Both the position numbers and the translations under genes were made by a program. From Butyricimonas faecihominis (GTDB lineage: Bacteria; Bacteroidota; Bacteroidia; Bacteroidales; Marinifilaceae): 64,000 nucleotides of DNA. The notes beneath the pieces were generated by a model. The model did no database searches. It was given only the letters and a program-made list of their open reading frames with translations, and was not told the DNA's origin. The stretch is taken from contig NZ_AP028155.1 of the NCBI RefSeq assembly GCF_033096445.1, positions 3,415,880 to 3,479,879 of the forward strand. Reading direction: 5' to 3'. Below are positions 7,616 to 48,457 of the stretch, piece after piece; within the stretch, counting starts at the first letter, position 1, and the number at the start of each line of letters is the position of its first letter.

Positions 7616-8779
7616 TTATTCTACAATCTTCACCTCCTTCCCTTCGATTAAGAATTTAACATCCGAAACAAATTCTATCACGTCCAAAGCTTCTCGGAGT
7701 GATGCGTGTTGTTTTATAGAAAATACGTATTCTTCCTTTTCCAAAGCAACCTCGTTTTTAACCGAGAAATGAACATCGTAGAACAATTCAAGACTGGGAA
7801 TTATCTGTTTTATCGTTTTCCCGTTAAAGAGAATATAACCATTCCGTTTAGCGGTGTATTCTGCCAGATTTGTTTGTGTAACTGTCAACTGTCCTAATTT
7901 ATCCACGAATGATTTGTCACCGGGATGAAGTACAGTTTCCTTTCCATCTGATGAATTTTTCGGGGTAATACTGACAACACCCTCTACCAACACGGCCTCA
8001 TCCGGCAAATTGTCCCGTGAAATAACATTAAACGTTGTCCCATACACCTGCAATTTCATATTATCCGTGTTTACCACGAAACGATTCGAAGATTTTGTCA
8101 CCTCAAAATATCCTTCCCCACGAAGAGTCACTTCTCGGGTAGAAGTTGAATCAAATTTCACCGGGTAAGTTAATTCACTCTGCGGGTTAAGCAACACGAA
8201 AGTTCCATCCGATAATACAAGTTCAAAGGTTTTTCCTCTTGGAACAACAACGGTATGCGTCGGGATAATTTCTTTTTCTTTCACCGTATCCACTCGATAA
8301 ATACTATCGGATTTGGTGTAATTCAACTGGTTATTATTAGTTTGCTGATCCATTTTCGAATTTAATTCCTCGGCAGTCAGTTTATCCCCGGTTTCCGTGA
8401 TTATAAAAACCGATTCTCCCGCATTCTCGCTTTTCATGGCAATCTGCATCCCGTCCATCTTATCCTGATTCATGTCATAATACCACCAAGTTCCCAGCGA
8501 GAGCAATAAAATAACAGATGCCGCCACGGTCATTCGTTGCCACAATACCCGTTGATGTTTCCGTCTTCTCGTCTTTTGCAATTTTGAATAGAACTGATCC
8601 AGCTTTTCTTCAGAAAAAGATTCGTTACGAGTCGGCTGATTTGCATAGTAATCAGATGCCCGTTGATAAAATTCTTCATTCCGGGGATCTTCTTTCCGCC
8701 AAAATTCTACCTCTTCGACCGTTTTTTTATCAGTCTGTCCATTGATATATGAAAATATTTTACCCCAATCAATCTGCAT
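7616..8779 (-). CDS. FecR-family anti-sigma factor
   Basis: A 387-residue inner-membrane regulator. It has a cytoplasmic N-terminal sigma-binding region (about 1-80), one transmembrane segment (about 83-101, TVAASVILLLSLGTWW), a periplasmic FecR domain (about 175-275, with VVPRGKTFELVLSDGT and GEGYFEV) and a C-terminal DUF4974-like domain (about 310-385). In Bacteroidetes such proteins hold an ECF sigma factor until a ligand-bound SusC signals through its STN domain. It lies between the divergent sigma gene (9054) and susC (7495), which fits that role. The start at 8779 gives the usual short N-terminus. Confidence 0.93.
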   Translation of the reverse strand: MQIDWGKIFSYINGQTDKKTVEEVEFWRKEDPRNEEFYQRASDYYANQPTRNESFSEEKLDQFYSKLQKTRRRKHQRVLWQRMTVAASVILLLSLGTWWYYDMNQDKMDGMQIAMKSENAGESVFIITETGDKLTAEELNSKMDQQTNNNQLNYTKSDSIYRVDTVKEKEIIPTHTVVVPRGKTFELVLSDGTFVLLNPQSELTYPVKFDSTSTREVTLRGEGYFEVTKSSNRFVVNTDNMKLQVYGTTFNVISRDNLPDEAVLVEGVVSITPKNSSDGKETVLHPGDKSFVDKLGQLTVTQTNLAEYTAKRNGYILFNGKTIKQIIPSLELFYDVHFSVKNEVALEKEEYVFSIKQHASLREALDVIEFVSDVKFLIEGKEVKIVE

Positions 8780-8873
8780 AAATTTTCAATCTTTTATACA
8801 ATAAACGCACAATGAAAAAAATGGGACCCCCATTTCCAATATTTTTTTTGAAAAAAATTTCATTGATCCAACC

Positions 8874-38315: not shown

Positions 38316-38386
38316 TGCCCTATTGTGTAATGGTAGCACTACAGATTCTGGTTCTGTCTGTCTGGGTTCGAATCCTAGTGGGGCAA
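38316..38386 (+). tRNA. tRNA-Gln (anticodon CTG)
   Basis: A 71-nt cloverleaf without encoded CCA: acceptor TGCCCTA/TGGGGCA, D stem GTGT/GCAC, anticodon stem ACAGA/TCTGT with loop TTCTGGT (anticodon CTG), T stem CTGGG/CCTAG with loop TTCGAAT, discriminator A. Its 3' 14 bases form part of a 17-bp direct repeat that recurs at 46296-46312, so the gene is the attachment site of the integrated element and is kept intact by it. Confidence 0.93.
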
Positions 38387-38389
38387 CAA
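38373..38389. repeat. attL (tRNA 3' end)
   Basis: TCCTAGTGGGGCAACAA, identical to 46296-46312. It covers the T-arm 3' half, the acceptor 3' strand and three further bases of tRNA-Gln. Confidence 0.88.
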
Positions 38390-38397
38390 CATGAAGA

Positions 38398-38437
38398 AAA
38401 CCCTTATAGTTGGAAAACTGTGAGGGTTTGTTTTTTT
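38398..38437 (+). terminator. tRNA-Gln terminator carried by the element
   Basis: AAACCCT and AGGGTTT (inner arms ATAGTT/AACTGT) and a seven-T run, 11 bp after the tRNA. Because it lies inside the element, it replaces the host's own terminator, which is now displaced to 46321-46351 and has the same design. Confidence 0.85.
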
Positions 38438-38534
38438 AATGAAATTTGTTGATTATCAGTGCTGTTACTTCTCTTTTCTATTTTGTCTGAATGATCTGTG
38501 ATATTAGGATTAAGGGATAATTTGATGTAGTTCT

Positions 38535-38587
38535 AGTATCATTTTAGGTATCATTTGTTGTTTTGGACAATAATTTTCAGTATCATA
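38535..38587. repeat. Arm-type repeats at the left end of the element
   Basis: AGTATCATT (38535-38543), GGTATCATT (38547-38555) and AGTATCATA (38579-38587) lie between attL and the integrase gene. Two further GGTATCATT copies lie at the other end of the element (46219, 46231). Their place and spacing fit binding sites for the integrase arm domain. Confidence 0.55.
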
Positions 38588-38625
38588 TTAGTATTCTAAT
38601 TATCAGTATTTTATAAAATATCATT

Positions 38626-39594
38626 ATGATAAAAAGAATAAATATATCATTTTTTAGGTGGAAATCCAGAGGAAATTCTAAAGGTCAAGCACCTATTTAT
38701 TGTAGGCTAAAATCAGATGTTGTTATAAAACAATTTACAACAGGGATGAGCATTTTAGAGAGGGATTGGGATAATGTAAAGCAAAGAGCCAAGCCAAGAT
38801 ATTTTGGATCAGAGAGAATAAATAATCATTTAAACATGATTGTTAAGAAATTGACTGATATAGAGGATAAATTGATATTGGAAGAAGTTGATGATATTGT
38901 TGAGATGGTTTATAATCTTTATACAGGCAAGGACACTTCAACTCATTTTTTCATTCAATTATTCCAGAAAAGATATGAAGTTGCATCTAAAATGGAGGGA
39001 ATAAAATTTGCAAAATATACTCTTTGGAAATTTAGGCACATAATGGAACAGACCCAAGAATATATCAAATGGAAGTACAAACAGGAAGATATTCCATTAC
39101 TCAAAATAGATTCTTCTTTTGTTTTGGGGTTTGAAGAGTATTTATTGTTAGAGAAAGGATTGGCTCCTATTACAGTGAATAAGGTCTTGCAGAGGGTAAA
39201 ACAGATCATCCAATATGGAATTAAATGTGATTACATGAAAGTTGATCCATTTGTTGAGTATAAGCCATTGAAAACAGAGAAAGAACTAGTTTTCTTGACA
39301 GAGGAAGAACTTGATTTGTTGGAAAATTATCAATTTGCACAAGATAGATTGGCTAGGGTGAGAGATCTATATTTGTTTAGTGTTTATACAGGATTGGCAT
39401 ACCATGAGGCATTTTCATTGAAAAAAAAGCATATTATCAAAGGATTTGATAAGGAACTTTGGATAAGTATGAAGAGGGGAAAAACAGGTAAAGATTTTGA
39501 AGTGCCATTGTTACCCAAGGCCATAGAAATTATTAAAAAATATGGTGAATTGGATAGTGATGATTCTTATGTTTTACCTAGGGTGAGTAACTAA
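38626..39594 (+). pseudogene. Tyrosine recombinase/integrase, C-terminally truncated
   Basis: A 322-residue product with the N-terminal Arm-like domain of Bacteroidetes integrases (about 1-90, KSRGNSKGQAPIYCRLKSDV), a SAM-like core-binding domain (about 105-215) and the first half of the catalytic domain (FSVYTGLAYHEAFSLK, ISMKRGKTGKDFEVPLL). It stops at YVLPRVSN, where relatives continue with about 80 residues bearing the HxxR and Tyr nucleophile. Those are missing, so it should be inactive. The open frame of the next gene begins at the same point (39587), which suggests a deletion that joined the two genes. All Arg codons are AGA/AGG. Confidence 0.85.
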
Positions 39595-39679
39595 ACCAGA
39601 ATGGATTAGCAATATAGATGAATCTCCTTACCATGTTATACAGGAGGTTAATCCAGCAAATAAAGAGGAATATAAGATT

Positions 39680-41740
39680 TTGAAATTTAATGGAGCTAAA
39701 ATTAAAAAAGATTTTGAGCTAGTTACTAGAGTGAAGAGGTTAGAAGATGATGAAAATAAAATTAAAGTTATAGAGTTTAACATGGAGGGGAAGAAGTATC
39801 TGGGAGATGTGTTGGATAGTATTCCTTTTGGTATCTTAAACAAGAATAGAACAGGAGTAGGAGCTACAACTCTAGAAATTGAGGCTAAAAGAAATTCCAT
39901 AATTGTTTGCCCTAATAAGTCACTAGCATATTCAAAATCAAAGTCAAGACCAGATGGTTTATTACAATATGTTGGTAGTCCTATTGGTGATATTACTTCT
40001 AGTACTTCCCCAAAAGATATTGAGGATTATATTGATGAGATTAATCAGAAAATATCAGATGGAGAGGATGTGTACAAGAAATTTTTAGTTGTTGCAGATA
40101 GTTTGCATAAAGTATATGAAGTAATTGCAACAAAAAAGAAATCTCTTGAATCTTATTTTCTTTTAGTGGATGAAGTGGACATGATTCAATCTGATGCCAC
40201 ATACAGGCCAAAATTAGAAGATGTTATTGATTATTATTTTAAATTTCCTCCATCTAATAGGGCTTTAGTTTCTGCAACAATCAAAGATTTTACTCATGAT
40301 CAGGTGCAAGAAGAACCAATGTTGGTTGCCAAGTATAATGATAAAGAAGAGAGACAAACCCCCTATCAAGTAATTCATACTAATAATCCTAATTTGATAG
40401 TGGCAGGGTATATTCAAGAAAGACATGGTGATGGAGAAAAAATAGTAATTGCCTATAATTCAATAACAGATATAAATGAAATCATACTCTTATTGCCAGA
40501 AGAATTAAGGAGTAGATGTGGTGTATTATGTAGTGAAGAGAGTAAAGGTAAAGTGAAAGATTATTATGTGGAACTAGTAGATAAGAAGTTGGAAAAGGAT
40601 ATTACTTTCATGACTTGTGTTTACTTTGTTGGAGTTGACATAAATGAGGGATTTCAGCTAGTTTCAGTTGTAAATGCTGATGTTCCTTATACTTTATTAT
40701 CCCTTGATAGGTTAACCCAGATAAGAGGTAGATGCAGACATAAAGAAGGGGTGATAACTGAAACTATTTACTATTCCACTAAAGATTCCAGCAAATACAA
40801 GTTTGGAAATCTTAAAATGGATGAATACAGGAGTAGGCTATTAAAGAAGGCAGACAAGATCATGCAACTTTATAGTACAATGAATGGTTTTATTGAGGAA
40901 GAAGGGGAAATGAAGGATGAATTTAAGAGTTTGTTTGATAAGGTTAAACCTGCAATCCAAAGCTATGCAACAGAAACAATGGGAAGTTTAGAAGTAAGTT
41001 TGACTAGAATAGATATAGATAAAAACTATAAAATATCCTATTTTAATATAGATGCACTTGTGGAGATGTTTGATTTGCTGAATAATTTGTATTATAAAAA
41101 GGGTAAGTTAGAGGAAGAGTGTGGAGTAGGAATTGGTGATACAATATACCTTGAATTTACAGAAGAGCAGGAGAGATGCAGAAGAATAGTACAGGGTGAT
41201 AAAAAGGAGAGAAAACATGAATTAATGGAAGTTGCTAAGGAAAAAATATTGATACTTAGCAATGAAGATAGATTGACAAAGGAAGAAATTGAGCAGTTGA
41301 AGAGAGAGAAGGGACAAAAGGATATTGAAAGATATTATGATTGGGTGATAGATCTTTATGAATATGTGGAAATAAATGAGTTGTTATCTTTCCTTGGTAA
41401 AGATCCAGAGTCAAGAGAATATAGAAATTATAAAAATGGGGTTATATTTAAGGCATTGGAAGATACTAATCTTTTTAAAGCTGCATTATTAACAAGATTT
41501 CCTGTATCTGAAACTTATTATTCAACTAATGATATAAAAGCATTTGTAGGTGAGAAGGTTGAAGAATGCTTGCATAGAAAAGTGGATAATGAAAATGTAT
41601 TAACTAAATTATTTAAATCATTCTTTACAACTAAAAAAGGTAGAGGATATAAAGTACTTAATGTAGGTAATGATAAATATCCTAATCCTATTAAAAGAAT
41701 AAGTACAAATGAAACATATAGATATTTTGATATAGAATAA
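39680..41740 (+). CDS. SF2 helicase-like ATPase, possibly lacking its N-terminus
   Basis: A 686-residue protein with helicase-like order: a degenerate P-loop (NRTGVGATTLEIEAK, no GKT), a DEAH-like box (LLVDEVDMI, near 165), SAT (VSATIKDF, near 195) and a motif VI-like TQIRGRCRH (near 350). The C-terminal half is helical and charged. I recall similar proteins in Bacteroidetes mobile elements, but the function is unproven; replication of the element is a guess. The TTG at 39680 is the first start codon, yet the frame is open and protein-like back to 39587 (TKPEWISNIDESPYHVIQEV), where it meets the truncated integrase. The true N-terminus was probably lost. Confidence 0.7.
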   Translation: MKFNGAKIKKDFELVTRVKRLEDDENKIKVIEFNMEGKKYLGDVLDSIPFGILNKNRTGVGATTLEIEAKRNSIIVCPNKSLAYSKSKSRPDGLLQYVGSPIGDITSSTSPKDIEDYIDEINQKISDGEDVYKKFLVVADSLHKVYEVIATKKKSLESYFLLVDEVDMIQSDATYRPKLEDVIDYYFKFPPSNRALVSATIKDFTHDQVQEEPMLVAKYNDKEERQTPYQVIHTNNPNLIVAGYIQERHGDGEKIVIAYNSITDINEIILLLPEELRSRCGVLCSEESKGKVKDYYVELVDKKLEKDITFMTCVYFVGVDINEGFQLVSVVNADVPYTLLSLDRLTQIRGRCRHKEGVITETIYYSTKDSSKYKFGNLKMDEYRSRLLKKADKIMQLYSTMNGFIEEEGEMKDEFKSLFDKVKPAIQSYATETMGSLEVSLTRIDIDKNYKISYFNIDALVEMFDLLNNLYYKKGKLEEECGVGIGDTIYLEFTEEQERCRRIVQGDKKERKHELMEVAKEKILILSNEDRLTKEEIEQLKREKGQKDIERYYDWVIDLYEYVEINELLSFLGKDPESREYRNYKNGVIFKALEDTNLFKAALLTRFPVSETYYSTNDIKAFVGEKVEECLHRKVDNENVLTKLFKSFFTTKKGRGYKVLNVGNDKYPNPIKRISTNETYRYFDIE

Positions 41741-41808
41741 ATTTGAATATAATAATTAAAGTATATATTTATATAAACTATATAATCTCAATAAAAAACA
41801 AACATCAT

Positions 41809-41855
41809 TTTCCATGTTTTGGTTACAAAATTTAAATATAGCTGAAACATGGAAA
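41809..41855. promoter_or_regulatory. 11-bp inverted repeat over the radC start
   Basis: TTTCCATGTTT (41809-41819) and its exact complement AAACATGGAAA (41845-41855) are 25 bp apart. The right half contains the ATG of the RadC-like gene. It could be an operator, or an RNA hairpin that hides the start codon. Confidence 0.5.
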
Positions 41856-42382
41856 CACTAGAAAAATTACTAAATGTGGCAGAAGTTGAACTGTCTTACA
41901 AGTGCCACATAAAACCAGCAGACAGGATAAAGATTTCAGATGAGAAAGATGTGTATTCACTAGCCAGAAGTCTCCTAGAAGATAGGATAGAACACCATGA
42001 AGAGATGTATATGGTGTTACTAGATCAAGCACTAAAGGTATTGGGTGTGGCTCTAGTAAGTAAAGGTGGGATTAGTAACACTGTGGTTGATCTTAGGATC
42101 ATATTTCAAGCTGCAATTCTTGCTAATGCAAGCAGGATAATTCTAGTTCACAATCATCCCTCTGGCAATCTTAAACCAAGCCTGCAGGATGACAAGATCA
42201 CCAAAAGAGTTTATCAAGTTGCATCCATCCTAGGAATAGAATTAACTGATCACCTGATCATTTCAGAAGAAAGTTATTATAGCTATGGAATTGAAGACAG
42301 GATAGATGTGATGAATCCTAGCAGGGATGATTATTCTTCACCATTTTTGAATCTGGATGAGATTGTCTTGCCAATTCATTAA
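41849..42382 (+). CDS. RadC-family JAB/MPN-domain protein
   Basis: A 177-residue protein with the JAMM metal motif HNHPSGNLKPSLQDD (residues about 101-115: HxH, then Ser and Asp) and the usual LLDQALKVLGVALVSKGG and HLIISEESYYSY segments. The N-terminal helix-hairpin-helix of chromosomal RadC is absent, as is usual in copies carried by Bacteroidetes mobile elements. The biochemical role is not settled; a metal-dependent hydrolase fold is expected. It stands alone between two gene-free stretches. Confidence 0.9.
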   Translation: METLEKLLNVAEVELSYKCHIKPADRIKISDEKDVYSLARSLLEDRIEHHEEMYMVLLDQALKVLGVALVSKGGISNTVVDLRIIFQAAILANASRIILVHNHPSGNLKPSLQDDKITKRVYQVASILGIELTDHLIISEESYYSYGIEDRIDVMNPSRDDYSSPFLNLDEIVLPIH

Positions 42383-43102
42383 AGAGTGTTAAAACATGGC
42401 AAATAAGGCCTCAAATCCTTGATTTAAGCCACTTTCTCCTCCTTTTCATAGGACTCTCTTCATCATTCATAAAAATGGCAATATAAAGCCTAATTAGCCT
42501 TATTTTAATCATGTAATTTTGGAAGAAGTGGAGGAATTGTCCCAGATATTTTTAAATGATTATTATATATAAAAATGAAAACAAGTGGGACAATGTTGCA
42601 CATAGATGTATATAATATACTAAACTAAGTGCAACAAGCATTCAAATCTTCTCCACCCTATGATGGTACAGTTCTAATTTTTACCTTTATATAGAATTAG
42701 ACCTGTACACCATCTTAAGAAAAAGAGAAGATATTTTACTCTTTAATGTGAATTAGATTTATTTTTGTAATACAACATCCCATGAGGGCATTTGTTTATA
42801 ATGCTGAATATATTTACTTTTGTATTGCTGGAGTGAGAGATCATGTCTAGCAAACATATTGAAATGTAGAAAGCATTAGCTTATCCTGACTTTAGAGAAT
42901 CTGGTAAATTTTAGAAAGGTGCAGGGATAGTGACAAATGCTCAACTTGCCATATATATAATCAATATATATAAGGTCAAGCATGGGATGTTATTATCTGT
43001 ACCTTGGGTTTACCAGAACCTTCTAAAGTGGATAATCTCAATTCCCATGCTTTCTTTGTATAATGACCTTTGGGGAATTGGAGGTACATATATTCAAATT
43101 AA
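42383..43102. other. 720-bp gene-free region with nested inverted repeats
   Basis: I see no convincing gene. It holds three inverted structures: GTTGCAC/GTGCAAC (42595-42601, 42629-42635); a long imperfect hairpin at 42662-42714 (GATGGTACAG and TCTAATT with partners AATTAGA and CTGTACACCATC); and a nested pair at 42972-43070 (AAGGTCA/TGACCTT outside, AAGCATGGGA/TCCCATGCTT inside, sharing one base on the left). The first recurs at 46075-46115. Structured RNA, an origin of transfer or replication, or regulator sites are all possible. A 64-codon frame at 42930-43124 is probably chance. Confidence 0.5.
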
Positions 43103-43714
43103 ATGGAAGATGAAACATATCTAGCAATTTATTATGATGATTCCAATCAAAAAATCAAAACTAGTATTAGTGAAATTGAGGGGTGGTTACAAAACATCAA
43201 TGTCAATAAAGAGCATCTATCTAAATTCATTTATTATAGATTATACTCTAGGTATTTGAAACCATTCCAATTTGATTGCTGTGAATATAAAAATTACTTT
43301 AAAAATGGTTTTTCCATGCTTGCCAATTACTGCCTTTTAATAGAGGCAATTCAATCATTCAAAGAAGGTTTAAAAAACAGCAATGGCAAAGGGAATAAAT
43401 TATTTGGAGATTTTTTTGAAGAAGAAGATAAGTATTTTTCTGAACTAAAGAATCTTGGAAATAAATTTTATAAAAATGTGAGGTGTGGTATATTACATCA
43501 AGGAGAAACTTTACATGGTTGGAAGGTCACAAGAAGTGAAACAGCACCTTTATTTGACAGTTCAACTAAAACTATTAATGCTACAAAATTTGGAAAACAA
43601 ATGAAAAAGGTGCTAGAAAATTACAGGCAAAAATTGGAAGAATCAGATGCAAATACTCCTATATGGGAATGTTGCAAAAGGAAATTAAATTATGTAATCA
43701 ATAATTGCAAGTAA
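43103..43714 (+). CDS. HEPN-like protein of unknown function
   Basis: A 203-residue, mostly helical protein. Around residues 126-131 it has RCGILH, which fits the Rx4H signature of HEPN domains, in a setting (FYKNVRCGILHQGETLHGWK) I recall from uncharacterised bacterial HEPN-like families. HEPN proteins are often RNases in defence or toxin systems, but no antitoxin or other defence gene is adjacent. It may be cargo of the element. It is followed after 4 bp by a lipoprotein gene. The function is inferred from one motif. Confidence 0.55.
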   Translation: MEDETYLAIYYDDSNQKIKTSISEIEGWLQNINVNKEHLSKFIYYRLYSRYLKPFQFDCCEYKNYFKNGFSMLANYCLLIEAIQSFKEGLKNSNGKGNKLFGDFFEEEDKYFSELKNLGNKFYKNVRCGILHQGETLHGWKVTRSETAPLFDSSTKTINATKFGKQMKKVLENYRQKLEESDANTPIWECCKRKLNYVINNCK

Positions 43715-43718
43715 AATT

Positions 43719-44696
43719 ATGAAGAAGTATTCAATTCTATTTATGGCTATTGCCACAATGTTATTCATCTCATGTTCAAAAGATGATAATGATTATGAAG
43801 ATGGAACATGGAGTACTGTTGAGATAGCTTTTGATGTTACTAAACCTCCCATGACAATTAAATTATCAAATTCAACAGCAGATCTTTATATCCATACCCA
43901 ATGGGGAGATGGCAGTAGCTCAGAAAATATATATGAGCACACATATACAACAGCAGGGAGGTACAATATTGTTGTAAAAGCAAGAAACATGAAAGTTTTC
44001 AATATTCACTATAATTACAGTTCAATTCATTTTAAAGATTGTCCAGATTTAATACATAACAATATCACTCTAGATGGTACAACTGACAATTCACTTACTG
44101 TTCCCAAAGTTGTAAAATTTGAAAATTGCCCCAAATTAACTACTATACTACTTGAGCTACAAAAAGTAACAAATCTTGAAATTGAAAATTGTCCCAAACT
44201 TGAAACATTGGATTGCAGTGTACATCAACTTCAGTCTCTTAATCTAGATTGTCCAGCACTCACAAAACTAGATTGTTCAATGGGACCATTAGAAGAGTTA
44301 AATTTGAAAAATTTTCCTTTATTGGAATCTTTAAATTGTTCTTATAATCAACTCAAAAATATAGATTTAAAAAATAATGATAAACTCAAAGAAGTTGATT
44401 GTTCTTGGAATCAATTCAGTAACATAACCTTCAAAGGCTTGGACAAACTAAAAGATATTAATTGCTCCAATAATCAACTAACTACATTAAATGTAGAAGA
44501 TTGCTATGAATTAAAAGAATTGAATTGCAAATTCAATAAATTGACAGAATTAGATCTTAGTGATAATACAAAATTATATTCTTTCATTTGTTTAGATAAT
44601 CCAATACAAACAATTTGGGTATGGGAAGGGTTTAGATCCATTGATGTTGAGTGGAGTATTCCTTATTATGGGGCAGAATACAAAGTAAAGCAATAA
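43719..44696 (+). CDS. Leucine-rich-repeat lipoprotein
   Basis: A 325-residue lipoprotein: signal peptide with lipobox (LFISCSKD), a PKD-like strand region (about 45-95, WGDGSSSENIYEHTYTTAGR), then seven or eight leucine-rich repeats of about 21 residues (about 110-300), with the pattern LxxLNCSxNQLxxLDL. It is probably exposed at the cell surface and binds a partner. Such proteins are frequent surface cargo in Bacteroidetes. It forms a pair with the next lipoprotein. Codon use is CG-free. Confidence 0.88.
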   Translation: MKKYSILFMAIATMLFISCSKDDNDYEDGTWSTVEIAFDVTKPPMTIKLSNSTADLYIHTQWGDGSSSENIYEHTYTTAGRYNIVVKARNMKVFNIHYNYSSIHFKDCPDLIHNNITLDGTTDNSLTVPKVVKFENCPKLTTILLELQKVTNLEIENCPKLETLDCSVHQLQSLNLDCPALTKLDCSMGPLEELNLKNFPLLESLNCSYNQLKNIDLKNNDKLKEVDCSWNQFSNITFKGLDKLKDINCSNNQLTTLNVEDCYELKELNCKFNKLTELDLSDNTKLYSFICLDNPIQTIWVWEGFRSIDVEWSIPYYGAEYKVKQ

Positions 44697-44719
44697 TATC
44701 ATATTTAAATTTTATCATA

Positions 44720-45628
44720 ATGAAAACAATTATTCCAATTATTTTAATGGTTCTTCTTTGTTCATGCAACAACTACCTACAATTAGTACAAATTCAAGGC
44801 AAAGAGGATATATCTATCAAAGATGATAGATTGGTTTATGAAGATGCCAATTGTAAGATTAGCTACAACTTTTGGTGTGAAGGGGGATATTCTGGTTTTG
44901 AATTTCATAACAAAACAGATCAGATGATTAAAATTGATTTGTCAGAATGTTTTTTTATCAAAAATGGGTATGCTAATGACTATTATCAAGACAGGACATT
45001 TATAGAACAACAAAGCTTTGGTTCTTCTATAACTTCAATGTTCATGAATAGCCAGTCAAGAGGTGAATACTCTTCTTCTACTACTTATCCAATAGGATTC
45101 ATAGGGCAGCCATACAAGACAAGTCATAAGGGCAGATCATCACAATCAAGCAGTAGTCAAGGAACAAGCTATTCCTTTTCAGCAAGTAAAAGTGTGGGAG
45201 TTGAGGTTGCAGAACAAAAAGTAATTAGTATCCCACCTCATTCAACAAAAGCAGTCAGGGGATTTGTGATTAATCCTTCCCTTTATAGGAATTGTGATTT
45301 ACTACTATACCCAGATTACAATAGCCAAAGGAGTATAAGAGCAAAGCAAAAAGTAAGTACACAAAAGTTCTCTTTCAATGAATCTCCTTTAATTTTTTCA
45401 AATCATATCAAGTACTATGTAGGAGATCAAAAAGCTGGGCATCTTGTTAAAAATGAATTCTACATGGATGAAGTCAAAAACATGAATTATAAAGATGCCA
45501 CTAGAAAGGTTTACTCTGAATGGTGTGGAGATAAACAAGCAAAAATTGAAGTAGTGAAAGATGCTAGCATTAACAAGTTTTATTTGTTATACCACAGAGC
45601 CACTAATAATGAAAAGGTAAAACATTAA
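44720..45628 (+). CDS. Uncharacterised lipoprotein
   Basis: From the ATG at 44720, 23 bp after the LRR gene, the product has about 302 residues and a lipoprotein signal (IILMVLLCSCNN). The frame also opens upstream inside the LRR gene, but that would hide the signal peptide. A Ser-rich low-complexity stretch (about 110-165, SSQSSSSQGTSYSFSASKS) divides two beta-rich parts. I recognise no family with certainty. It is probably an outer-membrane lipoprotein working with its LRR neighbour. Confidence 0.8.
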   Translation: MKTIIPIILMVLLCSCNNYLQLVQIQGKEDISIKDDRLVYEDANCKISYNFWCEGGYSGFEFHNKTDQMIKIDLSECFFIKNGYANDYYQDRTFIEQQSFGSSITSMFMNSQSRGEYSSSTTYPIGFIGQPYKTSHKGRSSQSSSSQGTSYSFSASKSVGVEVAEQKVISIPPHSTKAVRGFVINPSLYRNCDLLLYPDYNSQRSIRAKQKVSTQKFSFNESPLIFSNHIKYYVGDQKAGHLVKNEFYMDEVKNMNYKDATRKVYSEWCGDKQAKIEVVKDASINKFYLLYHRATNNEKVKH

Positions 45629-46295
45629 TAAATTTCTTTATAAGAGGGGAGTATAACATAAACACTCCCCCTCCTATTCATAGGATACCTTTCATCCCCC
45701 CTATCAACAATATAAAACAAACATCACATATTGAAACTTGGTGTTAATAGGTATTTTTTGAATCAAGATTATTGTATTCTCCTAGGAATCAGGAAGTCAA
45801 AAAATATTTAAGTTACTCCATATCCTTTAGTAGAGAGGAGGCATCAGCTTTGGCTGGTGTTTCCTTTCAAATTATAAAGTAATGATTTGAAATTGATATT
45901 AGGTTTGTCTGTTATGATATGGGGAATAAGGCCTTTTTTAAGTCATTACAGCCATTTTGGTAGTATGAATGATAAAGAATAGTTTGAAAAAAAATAAACA
46001 AGAATATGAAGATAAAAAAAGGGTATTTTAATTCATCTTGAAGATCATCCTTGTGAATTTTTAATCTGAATTGTGTTGCAGATAGATTGTATATATATTA
46101 ACAACTAAGTGCAACAAACAGGGTGTATTCTATTAAGAATCTGTGAAATGATGAAGAAAAAGCAGATTGTTTGTCTGTGTAATATATTGATTATTAATAT
46201 ATTACATAGGATTTACTAGGTATCATTAGTGGTATCATTCCATTTTTTTATTATTGTAACTTATTGAATATTAGCATGATATAAGAAAATAATTC
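45629..46295. other. Gene-free right end of the element
   Basis: No gene is visible. It holds a stem at 45646-45670 (GGGGAGT/ACTCCCC), a small stem at 45842-45859 followed by T-rich sequence (a possible terminator for the lipoproteins), a second copy of the GTTGCA...TGCAAC inverted repeat (46075-46115) and two arm-type repeats. Parts resemble 42400-42640 (CTCCT...CATAGGA and AATAAGGCCT motifs), so a duplicated regulatory block is likely. Confidence 0.5.
46219..46239. repeat. Arm-type repeats at the right end
   Basis: GGTATCATT at 46219-46227 and again at 46231-46239, the same motif as between attL and the integrase gene, about 57-77 bp inside attR. Confidence 0.55.
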
Positions 46296-46312
46296 TCCTA
46301 GTGGGGCAACAA
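46296..46312. repeat. attR
   Basis: TCCTAGTGGGGCAACAA, an exact copy of the tRNA-Gln 3' end (38373-38389), marking the right boundary of the element. Confidence 0.88.
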
Positions 46313-46320
46313 AAAGCAGA

Positions 46321-46351
46321 AATCCCTTGTAGTTTTCAACTATGAGGGATT
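46321..46351 (+). terminator. Original, displaced tRNA-Gln terminator
   Basis: AATCCCT and AGGGATT with inner arms TAGTT/AACTA, 9 bp after attR. It has the same design as the element's hairpin at 38398. Before integration it would have followed the tRNA; now it lies before a sigma gene. Confidence 0.65.
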
Positions 46352-46403
46352 GTTAGTTTCTGAATATTTTTGTAGGTTAATTAATAGTTGTTATTTTTGC
46401 CGG

Positions 46404-47198: not shown

Positions 47199-48035
47199 TC
47201 AATACATGACCCTGGCGAATAACTCTTTTTTATCGCGGTGTGCCTGGTCCGGAACTTTCAACCCGATAGCCATGTGTGGTCTTCTGGTGTTGTATATCCC
47301 GATGATTCTCTCCACTTGCATTCTCGCCTGGTCAATATCTCTCAAGACCATATCGTTTAACCATTCCCGTTTCAAAATCCCGTTCACTCTCTCGGCGATA
47401 CCGTTATCGTAAGGGGAGCCATCTTGTGTCACGCTGACTTGAATACCGTGTTCTTTCAATATCCCGGTGTACAGCGAGGAGCAGTATTGCCCACCCCGAT
47501 CCGAGTGATGAACAAGCTTATCGCTAAAGTTGGGAGGTAGCGTTGCCAACGCCCGGCACAACGCCTTCACGGGACCGGACGAGTCCAGGGTGGGGTGAAC
47601 TTCCCACCCCGTGATCCGCCGGGAATAAGCGTCGGTTACCAGCGAGAGATACACGAAACCGGCACTCGTTGACAGGTACGTGATATCACTGACCCATACC
47701 TGGTTGGGGCGGGTAACTCGAAGCCCTTTCACCAGGTTCGGGTACTGGCGATGCCACGCCCGGGAATCCGTCGTGATGACCCGGTACTTCTTCTGTTTTA
47801 TCATTAAATCGTGAAGGTGAAGTAAACGATAAAGCCAATCCCGACCGACGGGAAGCCCGTTAGACCCCAGCATGTTCCACAATTTATTAACCCCGAGGTT
47901 AGGCATGTCACGGCGAATATCCTGGACGATGGAAAGAACGTAACGCTCGCGTTCCTCGCCTCCACGATCGGCACGGAGGCTCTTGTAATAAGCCTGCTTG
48001 CTGTAGCCAAGGGAATTGCAAAGGTGTTCCGTCAC
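47199..48035 (-). CDS. IS3-family transposase OrfB (DDE integrase core)
   Basis: A 278-residue product with an HTH_21-like N-terminus (DIRRDMPNLGVNKLW) and an rve integrase core. DDE residues appear in VWVSDITYLS (Asp), HHSDRGGQY (Asp) and PYDNGIAERVNGILKREW (Glu). It starts at a GTG overlapping the orfA stop by 4 bp. Its frame is also open further upstream into orfA as far as a run of nine A (48096-48104 on the minus strand), so an OrfAB fusion by -1 frameshift is likely, as in other IS3 elements. Confidence 0.93.
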   Translation of the reverse strand: MTEHLCNSLGYSKQAYYKSLRADRGGEERERYVLSIVQDIRRDMPNLGVNKLWNMLGSNGLPVGRDWLYRLLHLHDLMIKQKKYRVITTDSRAWHRQYPNLVKGLRVTRPNQVWVSDITYLSTSAGFVYLSLVTDAYSRRITGWEVHPTLDSSGPVKALCRALATLPPNFSDKLVHHSDRGGQYCSSLYTGILKEHGIQVSVTQDGSPYDNGIAERVNGILKREWLNDMVLRDIDQARMQVERIIGIYNTRRPHMAIGLKVPDQAHRDKKELFARVMY

Positions 48036-48457
48036 GGCTTTACCTCCCCGCTCTTTTTGTCTCTCGACAATCCCGCTAATAGCATCTCCTCGTAGTTTTT
48101 TTTTACATCAACATGCAGGCGTTCCCTGGCTAACTCTAGCATTAACTCGTAAGCTTCCACTAGTATTTTCTGTTTCTCTACTTCCTGACGTAAAGACTCC
48201 AGCTCGGCGCGTTCTTGATCGGTCATCGGGTATAACATTTTGTAATTACGCGAAGATAAACGTTTGTGTTGTTCTTCCGATAAAACGCGAGATTTATACT
48301 TGTGTAGCCAAACGTGAAAAGTCGAGGGTTTGACCTCGTACTTGGCTAGAACTTCCGCGTAACCCATTTCATTGATTATTCGATCTCGTACCGCTGATAA
48401 TTTCGTCTTCACGGCGTAATAACGACGACGAACAGGGGGAAAATTTAATTCTGACAT
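48032..48457 (-). CDS. IS3-family OrfA (helix-turn-helix)
   Basis: A 141-residue DNA-binding protein: an N-terminal helix-turn-helix (RDRIINEMGYAEVLAKYEVK, STFHVWLHKYK) and a leucine-zipper-like coiled coil (ELESLRQEVEKQKILVEAYE). It contains the slippery A9 run that could shift ribosomes into orfB. It begins 42 bp inside the right end of the IS. Confidence 0.9.
   Translation of the reverse strand: MSELNFPPVRRRYYAVKTKLSAVRDRIINEMGYAEVLAKYEVKPSTFHVWLHKYKSRVLSEEQHKRLSSRNYKMLYPMTDQERAELESLRQEVEKQKILVEAYELMLELARERLHVDVKKNYEEMLLAGLSRDKKSGEVKP

Follow-up and report, generated by a model that had tools for sequence, protein, structure and literature searches.

Why should an integrated element of a bacterial chromosome contain not one CG dinucleotide when CG is normally frequent in the host DNA on both sides of it? 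The question is raised by a 64,000-nucleotide stretch of Butyricimonas faecihominis (assembly GCF_033096445.1, contig NZ_AP028155.1, positions 3,415,880 to 3,479,879; hereafter the window), taken from a genome that is a single contig of 4.85 Mb. The element in the window lies at a tRNA-Gln gene and is a member of a small tRNA-integrated Bacteroidales family with an SF2 helicase, often accompanied by RadC or DUF3871; no name for this family was found in the libraries searched (Pfam, PHROG, NCBIfam and PADLOC).

Absence of CG from the window element

The original prediction, made from the letters alone, held that positions 38371–46400 contain no CG and that the nearest CGs are at 38369–38370 and 46401–46402. 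Our recount agrees: the run spans 8,030 bases at 30.7% G+C, contains 0 CG and is bounded by C38369/G38370 and C46401/G46402. The second-longest gap between CGs in the 64-kb window is 215, and the host flanks, proposed earlier as the comparison, are normal, with CG observed-to-expected (o/e) ratios of 1.18 to the left of the run and 1.20 to the right. Chance had been estimated to give 150–200 CGs; 1,000 shuffles of the element (38373–46312) gave a mean of 181 (range 143–215) as compared with 0 in the real sequence, which rules out chance as the cause. The run had also been equated with the element between the left and right attachment (att) sites, attL and attR. This holds near both att sites but not for the final 88 bases past attR (to 46400), which belong to the host and probably lack CG by chance. 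An excised circle of the element, att core included, would carry zero CG.

The GC dinucleotide is approximately normal in the run (0.93), as had been noted, and CG is gone from intergenic DNA, codon interiors and codon–codon junctions alike, which bears out the earlier reading. Among NNY codons preceding a G, 0 end in C and 232 in T, as compared with 198 and 553, respectively, at other places, and all 75 Arg codons counted are AGA or AGG, again as predicted. An assembly error is ruled out, since independent isolates and metagenome-assembled genomes (MAGs) show the same trait, and AT-rich composition alone is ruled out, since hosts and other AT-rich integrase loci retain CG.

CG loss among relatives and hosts

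Three whole elements have 0 CG, namely the window element, L009 and L104, and eight more carry 1–26. L009 lies in the same genome at a tRNA-Thr, within an 8,531-base CG-free run; its integrase and helicase differ from those of the window element (33% identity for the helicase), and its RadC segment is 90% identical. L104 (genome G423, of another Bacteroidales family) lies in an 8,909-base run and was found by a helicase search of 393 Bacteroidales genomes. Low counts are also found in four elements from the genus Butyricimonas, L056 (tRNA-Asn; 1 CG in 6.1 kb), L057 (12 in 7.1 kb), L058 (tRNA-Gln; 1 in 4.0 kb) and L060 (9 in 9.6 kb), with L057–L060 being contig pieces. L074 from Dysgonomonas sp. 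520 has 2 CGs in 10.2 kb and a CG-free run of 8,860 bases, and L076 (Dysgonomonas Marseille-P4361), L077 (Bacteroides congonensis) and L075 (a Bacteroides MAG) have o/e ratios of 0.08–0.11. Several elements were delimited by eye, with the profile of CG and tRNAs as the guide, and their ratios lean low for that reason. By comparison, the window element, L009, L056 and L074 have att repeats at their ends, which enclose the loss and are all CG-free. L062 and L107, which have more CG, have CG in their repeats; L104 has only short broken repeats at its ends, and no repeats were found for L077.

Beyond these elements the loss is graded. Helicase matches at 1e-20 occur in 18 of the 393 genomes, the own genome included, and the remaining 17 stretches fetched from that search have element ratios from about 0.3 up to normal; places with DUF3871, in 10 of 295 genomes, are at or below 0.87 in 12 of 12 cases. 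The original prediction held that relatives with normal CG would make the window element a one-copy oddity. When CG is compared over homologues, as it proposed, distant ones do grade to normal, but close ones, and some from other host families, have none or only a few. In a quick helicase tree of 26 rows, with three open forks and some long branches (12 loci with short frames were skipped, and a duplicate, two broken loci and one short locus were dropped by hand), CG-free members are interspersed among depleted ones. Extreme CG loss therefore probably arose more than once, as judged from this scatter of sequences.

Further members of the family were observed alongside. In the same genome, L065 and L066 (C1:150000-169999 and C1:2600000-2619999) are apparently one element of this class present twice, with a ratio of about 0.35 and identical helicases, adjoining tRNA-Gly/tRNA-Tyr. 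L011 (C1:4329000-4348000) bears DUF3871, and its right half is mostly CG-poorer than its left, as if its modules came from different histories; its cargo has one match of endolysin type, HExxH-like motifs were noted there by eye, and two of its cargo proteins have no phage match. In L104, positions 7923–8873 encode a protein with a PD-(D/E)XK-like end (by eye) that could be a nuclease and has only a weak PHROG match. In a scan of viral contigs, the window helicase alone found no relative and the helicase alignment found one contig.

The CG loss tracks the element class rather than the host. The own genome has 19 integrase loci with PF13102; with each taken as the match plus 1.5 kb on either side, 13 have ratios of 0.93–1.22. 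Two of the other six lie in the CG-free elements and two in the duplicated element (L142, L156, L146 and L147, all of the class); L152 (0.76), some 1 kb ahead of the L011 stretch, could be the integrase of L011, and L150 is at 0.68. In four other hosts, 28 of the 30 loci fetched (90 were found) are at 0.65–1.13, and the remaining two, L177 (by position) and L180 (presumably, from its position), are class elements.

Probable selection against CG and the proposed link to Steigviridae

The original prediction offered selection as one cause of the loss, and this is supported by the absence of CG across hundreds of substitutions. For every one of the 21 aligned pairs, the second sequence has fewer CGs than expected: the window element and L009 differ by 891 substitutions with 0 CG (62.6 expected), the window element and L056 by 467 with 0 (40.1 expected), L009 and L056 by 314 with 0 (24.8 expected), and the window element and L058 by 378 with 1 (19.6 expected). 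Further support comes from longer words purged in some members, as GATC occurs 0 times against 25–38 expected in L074, L104, L075 and L077, and CCWGG 0 times against 13 in L077. The short host flanks of L074 and L104 have normal GATC (11 versus 12.1 and 22 versus 22.3 expected), whereas those in B. congonensis, the Bacteroides MAG and Dysgonomonas Marseille-P4361 also avoid it, so that the loss of GATC would reflect restriction in hosts of this kind.

The 82 residual CGs of the eight near-free elements occupy all 10 flanking contexts, which points to CG itself as the target; an escape context, such as targeting of palindromic CG sites only, is thereby ruled out. CG is accordingly a word depleted beyond composition and codon use in mobile DNA. 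As in the avoidance of restriction sites (palindromes) by phages and plasmids, words are purged through synonymous replacement, mostly not in the host, and deficits of GATC, CCWGG or CTAG are found in some of these elements and phages. The difference is that here a bare dinucleotide is concerned, with 0 left in 8–9 kb. Known restriction avoidance removes words of about 4–6 bases, and we know of no two-base restriction enzyme.

A comparable loss is found in phages of the Steigviridae. In crAss001, the 99.7 kb read contain 87 CGs (o/e 0.03), 19 of which lie in annotated tRNA genes; GATC occurs once where about 323 copies are expected, and in the two genes tested no codon ending in C precedes a G. 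DAC15 has 8 CGs in 30 kb (0.01). The ratio is 0.01–0.38 in seven of seven Steigviridae records sampled (by record taxonomy) and 0.06 in a related faecal phage, as compared with 0.53–1.06 in five of five other Crassvirales. These phages were picked after crAss001 had been examined, and phage ratios refer to stretches of 12–50 kb except for crAss001 (99,680 of 102,679 bases) and MT839478 (whole, 4.3 kb). CG is almost absent from the parts read of L202/L215 (MH675552), L206 (MT074136), L223, L224 and the related L226, and several such crAss-like phages show strong GATC and CTAG deficits.

The elements and these phages also have genes in common. A 90-amino-acid (aa) protein of L074 matches 36 of 50,697 phage records and a 152-aa aspartyl-protease-like protein of L077 matches 42; the best 30 in each case comprise phages identified as crAss-like by their name or a capsid match, together with an element-like fragment, MT839478, a 4.3-kb faecal ‘bacteriophage’ piece of the element family with a CG ratio of 0.09 and GATC 0 of 13. 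The third protein in common, an AAA ATPase of phage type that we take to be Sak4-like, matches 409 records across many phages and is uninformative. BLAST of ten elements against the phage stretches gave short matches only.

We propose that CG may act as a two-base DNA target, which would be removed by purifying selection as in restriction-site avoidance. The selecting nuclease, or a modification of CG followed by cleavage, would hit the extrachromosomal form and spare the resident chromosome, and the excised element would meet this agent where certain Bacteroidales phages grow, above all Steigviridae. The agent could be a phage-encoded nuclease that destroys the CG-bearing host chromosome but leaves the phage and its satellites intact, or it could be an antiviral defence of the Bacteroidales, in response to which some phage lineages purged CG and others (ARB14) answered differently. 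The elements would most likely be satellites or hitchhikers of CG-less phages. We put at roughly 0.55 the probability that they are CG-purged satellites or hitchhikers of Steigviridae-type phages, selected by a putative CG-targeting nuclease. A broader version is tentative, with the odds somewhat against it: bare CG would be a two-base self/non-self mark in gut Bacteroidales or crAss-like phages, a putative nuclease would destroy CG-bearing DNA, and Steigviridae and their integrating satellites would have purged CG, att sites included.

Several observations weigh against this proposal. The graded relatives (0.2–0.7) require partial or past exposure, and the Butyricimonas elements retain GATC (23 in the window element). 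ARB14 and SJC17, phages of the same host species, B. thetaiotaomicron, are at 1.41–1.42. DAC22 (L217, MT074141; 179 kb), a phage that infects B. thetaiotaomicron and carries no crAss-like annotation, has a ratio of 0.09 in the 12 kb read (21% G+C), so that a crAss-specific agent is not enough and one wider than crAss is suggested. Among four IMG/VR contigs with DUF3871, L220 is at 0.04 and the others at 0.25, 0.82 and 0.85 around the gene, or 0.76–0.91 overall. The two shared genes were not found in the window element, and its 203-aa open reading frame (ORF) and an L009 cargo protein have no phage match; the phage link of the window element is therefore by kinship. Pfam recognized no relaxase, capsid or packaging genes among the window ORFs (those of relatives were scanned in part), and no nuclease or CG-specific enzyme was identified in the sequences examined. 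The preference for NCA over NCT slightly exceeds its control in the window element (0.57/0.48), L009 (0.56/0.52) and L074 (0.51/0.46), a hint of change from CG to CA. Furthermore, the window copy remains CG-free with a truncated integrase (322 aa, versus 408 aa in its relative L058, which occupies a tRNA-Gln site of this kind). The truncation suggests that this copy is now fixed, and it was probably trapped recently, since its integrase is truncated yet the element is still CG-free.

Alternatively, the element family or its helper may itself encode a CG-cutting weapon against the host or competitors and lack CG so as to be spared, much like the Vibrio satellite PLE, from which the motif of the satellite's nickase, NixI, is reportedly missing. 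That the trait follows the element class and not the host fits this possibility, but a phage-borne nuclease would fit equally. Integrase and helicase are the only genes recognized in all of the window element, L009, L104 and L074 (L104 ORFs by eye); no nuclease domain was recognized in the shared genes, and the helicase folds as an SF2 helicase. We regard self-exemption as unlikely, although it survives best among the alternatives.

Mutational loss is improbable as well. Under this explanation, CG on the extrachromosomal form would be methylated and deaminated, or otherwise hypermutated, until gone, which agrees with the equal depletion of coding and non-coding DNA and with the gradation among relatives. 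The original prediction had named deamination as the other possible cause and proposed a test for TG/CA excess, in which no clear excess specific to TG/CA emerged. CA/TG is raised in the element (1.20 versus 0.92 in the host), but CT/AG is raised equally (1.09 versus 0.81). Where a relative has CG, the CG-free elements hold TG/CA in 151 and AG/CT in 136 of 428 rows, which reuse overlapping pairs and hence are not independent. Deamination fits poorly because AG/CT and TG/CA take the place of CG with similar frequency, even though TG is the commonest single replacement (104 of 428) and NCA slightly exceeds NCT in three of four elements; L104, like crAss001, shows no such excess. For the non-G bases that follow C, the value for A is 1.02 in the window element versus 0.97 in the host, is near the host value in L009, and lies below it in L104, L074 and L077. 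Arg is kept as AGR (3.7–4.0% versus 4.4% in host genes), zero residual CG would require decay more than 100 times faster than formation, and the loss of GATC is unconnected with CG mutation. Vertebrate-type CpG depletion concerns the same dinucleotide, but here the loss is complete, the TG/CA signature is unclear and the host flanks are not depleted.

A host that restricts CG on all incoming DNA, so that every newcomer loses it, is distinctly improbable. A check of the hosts for CG methyltransferases, also proposed earlier, found C5 methyltransferases in 10 of the 11 hosts scanned but identified no CG-specific enzyme, specificity not being readable from sequence. One such C5-cytosine methyltransferase of 418–424 aa (L126; C1:852906-854120 in the own genome) was read in five Butyricimonas genomes, with a same-length match in a sixth (G003), and the own-genome copy is followed by a restriction-like ORF (by eye). 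The Butyricimonas enzyme is nearest to M.HaeIII and only weakly matches PDB 4dkj, which we take to be the CG enzyme M.MpeI. CG persists at the majority of the other integrase loci of these genomes, and ARB14, SJC17 and the B. fragilis phages B124-14 and B40-8 are at 1.20–1.42 in the stretches read. We give least credence to sensing of CG in RNA, an idea modelled on the zinc-finger antiviral protein of vertebrates, whereby element and phage transcripts would avoid CG: loss is near-total in coding sequence, also in crAss001, which is annotated with RNA-polymerase subunits, but intergenic DNA and att cores are just as CG-free, GATC and CCWGG avoidance points to DNA, and we know of no bacterial CG-in-RNA sensor.

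Gene map and implications

The features of the element and its insertion site are collected in Table 1. The helicase gave no match at E 0.01 in PHROG, NCBIfam or PADLOC. Its AlphaFold model (predicted local distance difference test score, pLDDT, 78) matches RecQ/DEAD helicases in Foldseek and, at low similarity, the herpes simplex virus 1 (HSV-1) origin-binding protein 9hgi; it thus resembles helicases of replication and repair, and is more likely to initiate replication of the excised element than to cut DNA. Imperfect short repeats (42438–42464/45670–45696 and 41789–41807/45708–45726) and conserved non-coding DNA bracket the cargo genes, which are arranged as if they were an exchangeable cassette. 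Besides the tRNA, an Rfam scan found no known RNA family in the element. Insertion-sequence transposase-like ORFs lie directly to its right, at 47199–48457 (by eye from translations).

Table 1 Features of the window element and its insertion site (window coordinates)
Feature	Position	Strand	Evidence and remarks
tRNA-Gln (ctg), integration target	38316..38387	+	ARAGORN, Rfam tRNA; T-loop CG 38369-38370 just beyond element edge
CG-free run, 8,030 bases (element 38373-46312)	38371..46400	.	CG count, shuffles
attL core, 17-bp direct repeat TCCTAGTGGGGCAACAA, CG-free	38373..38389	+	Repeat search
Tyrosine integrase, truncated	38626..39594	+	Pfam PF17293, PF13102, PF00589 below cut-off
SF2 helicase, family without name	39587..41740	+	Open frame; weak DEAD (Pfam)
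Segment 90% identical to L009 (RadC and ~700 bp non-coding)	41789..43084	.	89% in L056
RadC-like JAB domain protein	41849..42382	+	Pfam PF04002, E 5.6e-37
203-aa cargo protein, family unassigned	43103..43714	+	Pfam nothing above cut-off; phage match none
Leucine-rich repeat (LRR) lipoprotein-like cargo (lipoprotein by eye)	43719..44696	+	Pfam LRR_4; relatives in L057, L060
Lipoprotein-like cargo (by eye)	44720..45628	+	Pfam none; ORF listed from 44651, start set by eye
Conserved non-coding segment	45639..45875	.	~71-94% identity in L009, L056, L057, L060
attR core, second copy of 17-bp repeat	46296..46312	+	Repeat search

The window element has the att sites, small size and integrase (here truncated) of a phage satellite and, like one, lacks a full virion gene set. 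Like phage satellites and integrative mobilizable elements, this class is small and tRNA-integrated, with its own integrase, a replication-like helicase and variable cargo; unlike them, it shows no recognized gene for packaging, capsid remodelling or a relaxase among the window ORFs scanned. With the Steigviridae (crAss001, DAC15) it shares the loss of CG, which in crAss001 goes with near-absence of GATC, and related elements have the two small protein families in common with them. The Steigviridae, however, are 100-kb phages with capsid genes, whereas the element has an integrase and no recognized virion gene; Crassvirales major capsid protein, portal and terminase were not recognized among the window ORFs.

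The original prediction knew of no described prokaryotic element with such a loss. A search of titles and abstracts agrees, finding no description of CG-free elements or of CG loss in crAss-like phages, although such absence is not proof; near-total loss is nevertheless present in public crAss-like phage genomes. Whole elements here lack a two-base word altogether, and some phages have almost none of it left. Low CG in a host with normal CG provides a search rule, requiring sequence only, that flags such phages and satellites. Because the nearly CG-free DAC15 shares its host species with the CG-normal ARB14 and SJC17, the model is testable. If true, it would link a family of integrating elements to the crAss-like phages, and the CG-targeting agent, if it exists, would discriminate DNA by a shorter target than any other system that we know of and would act on abundant viruses of the human gut.

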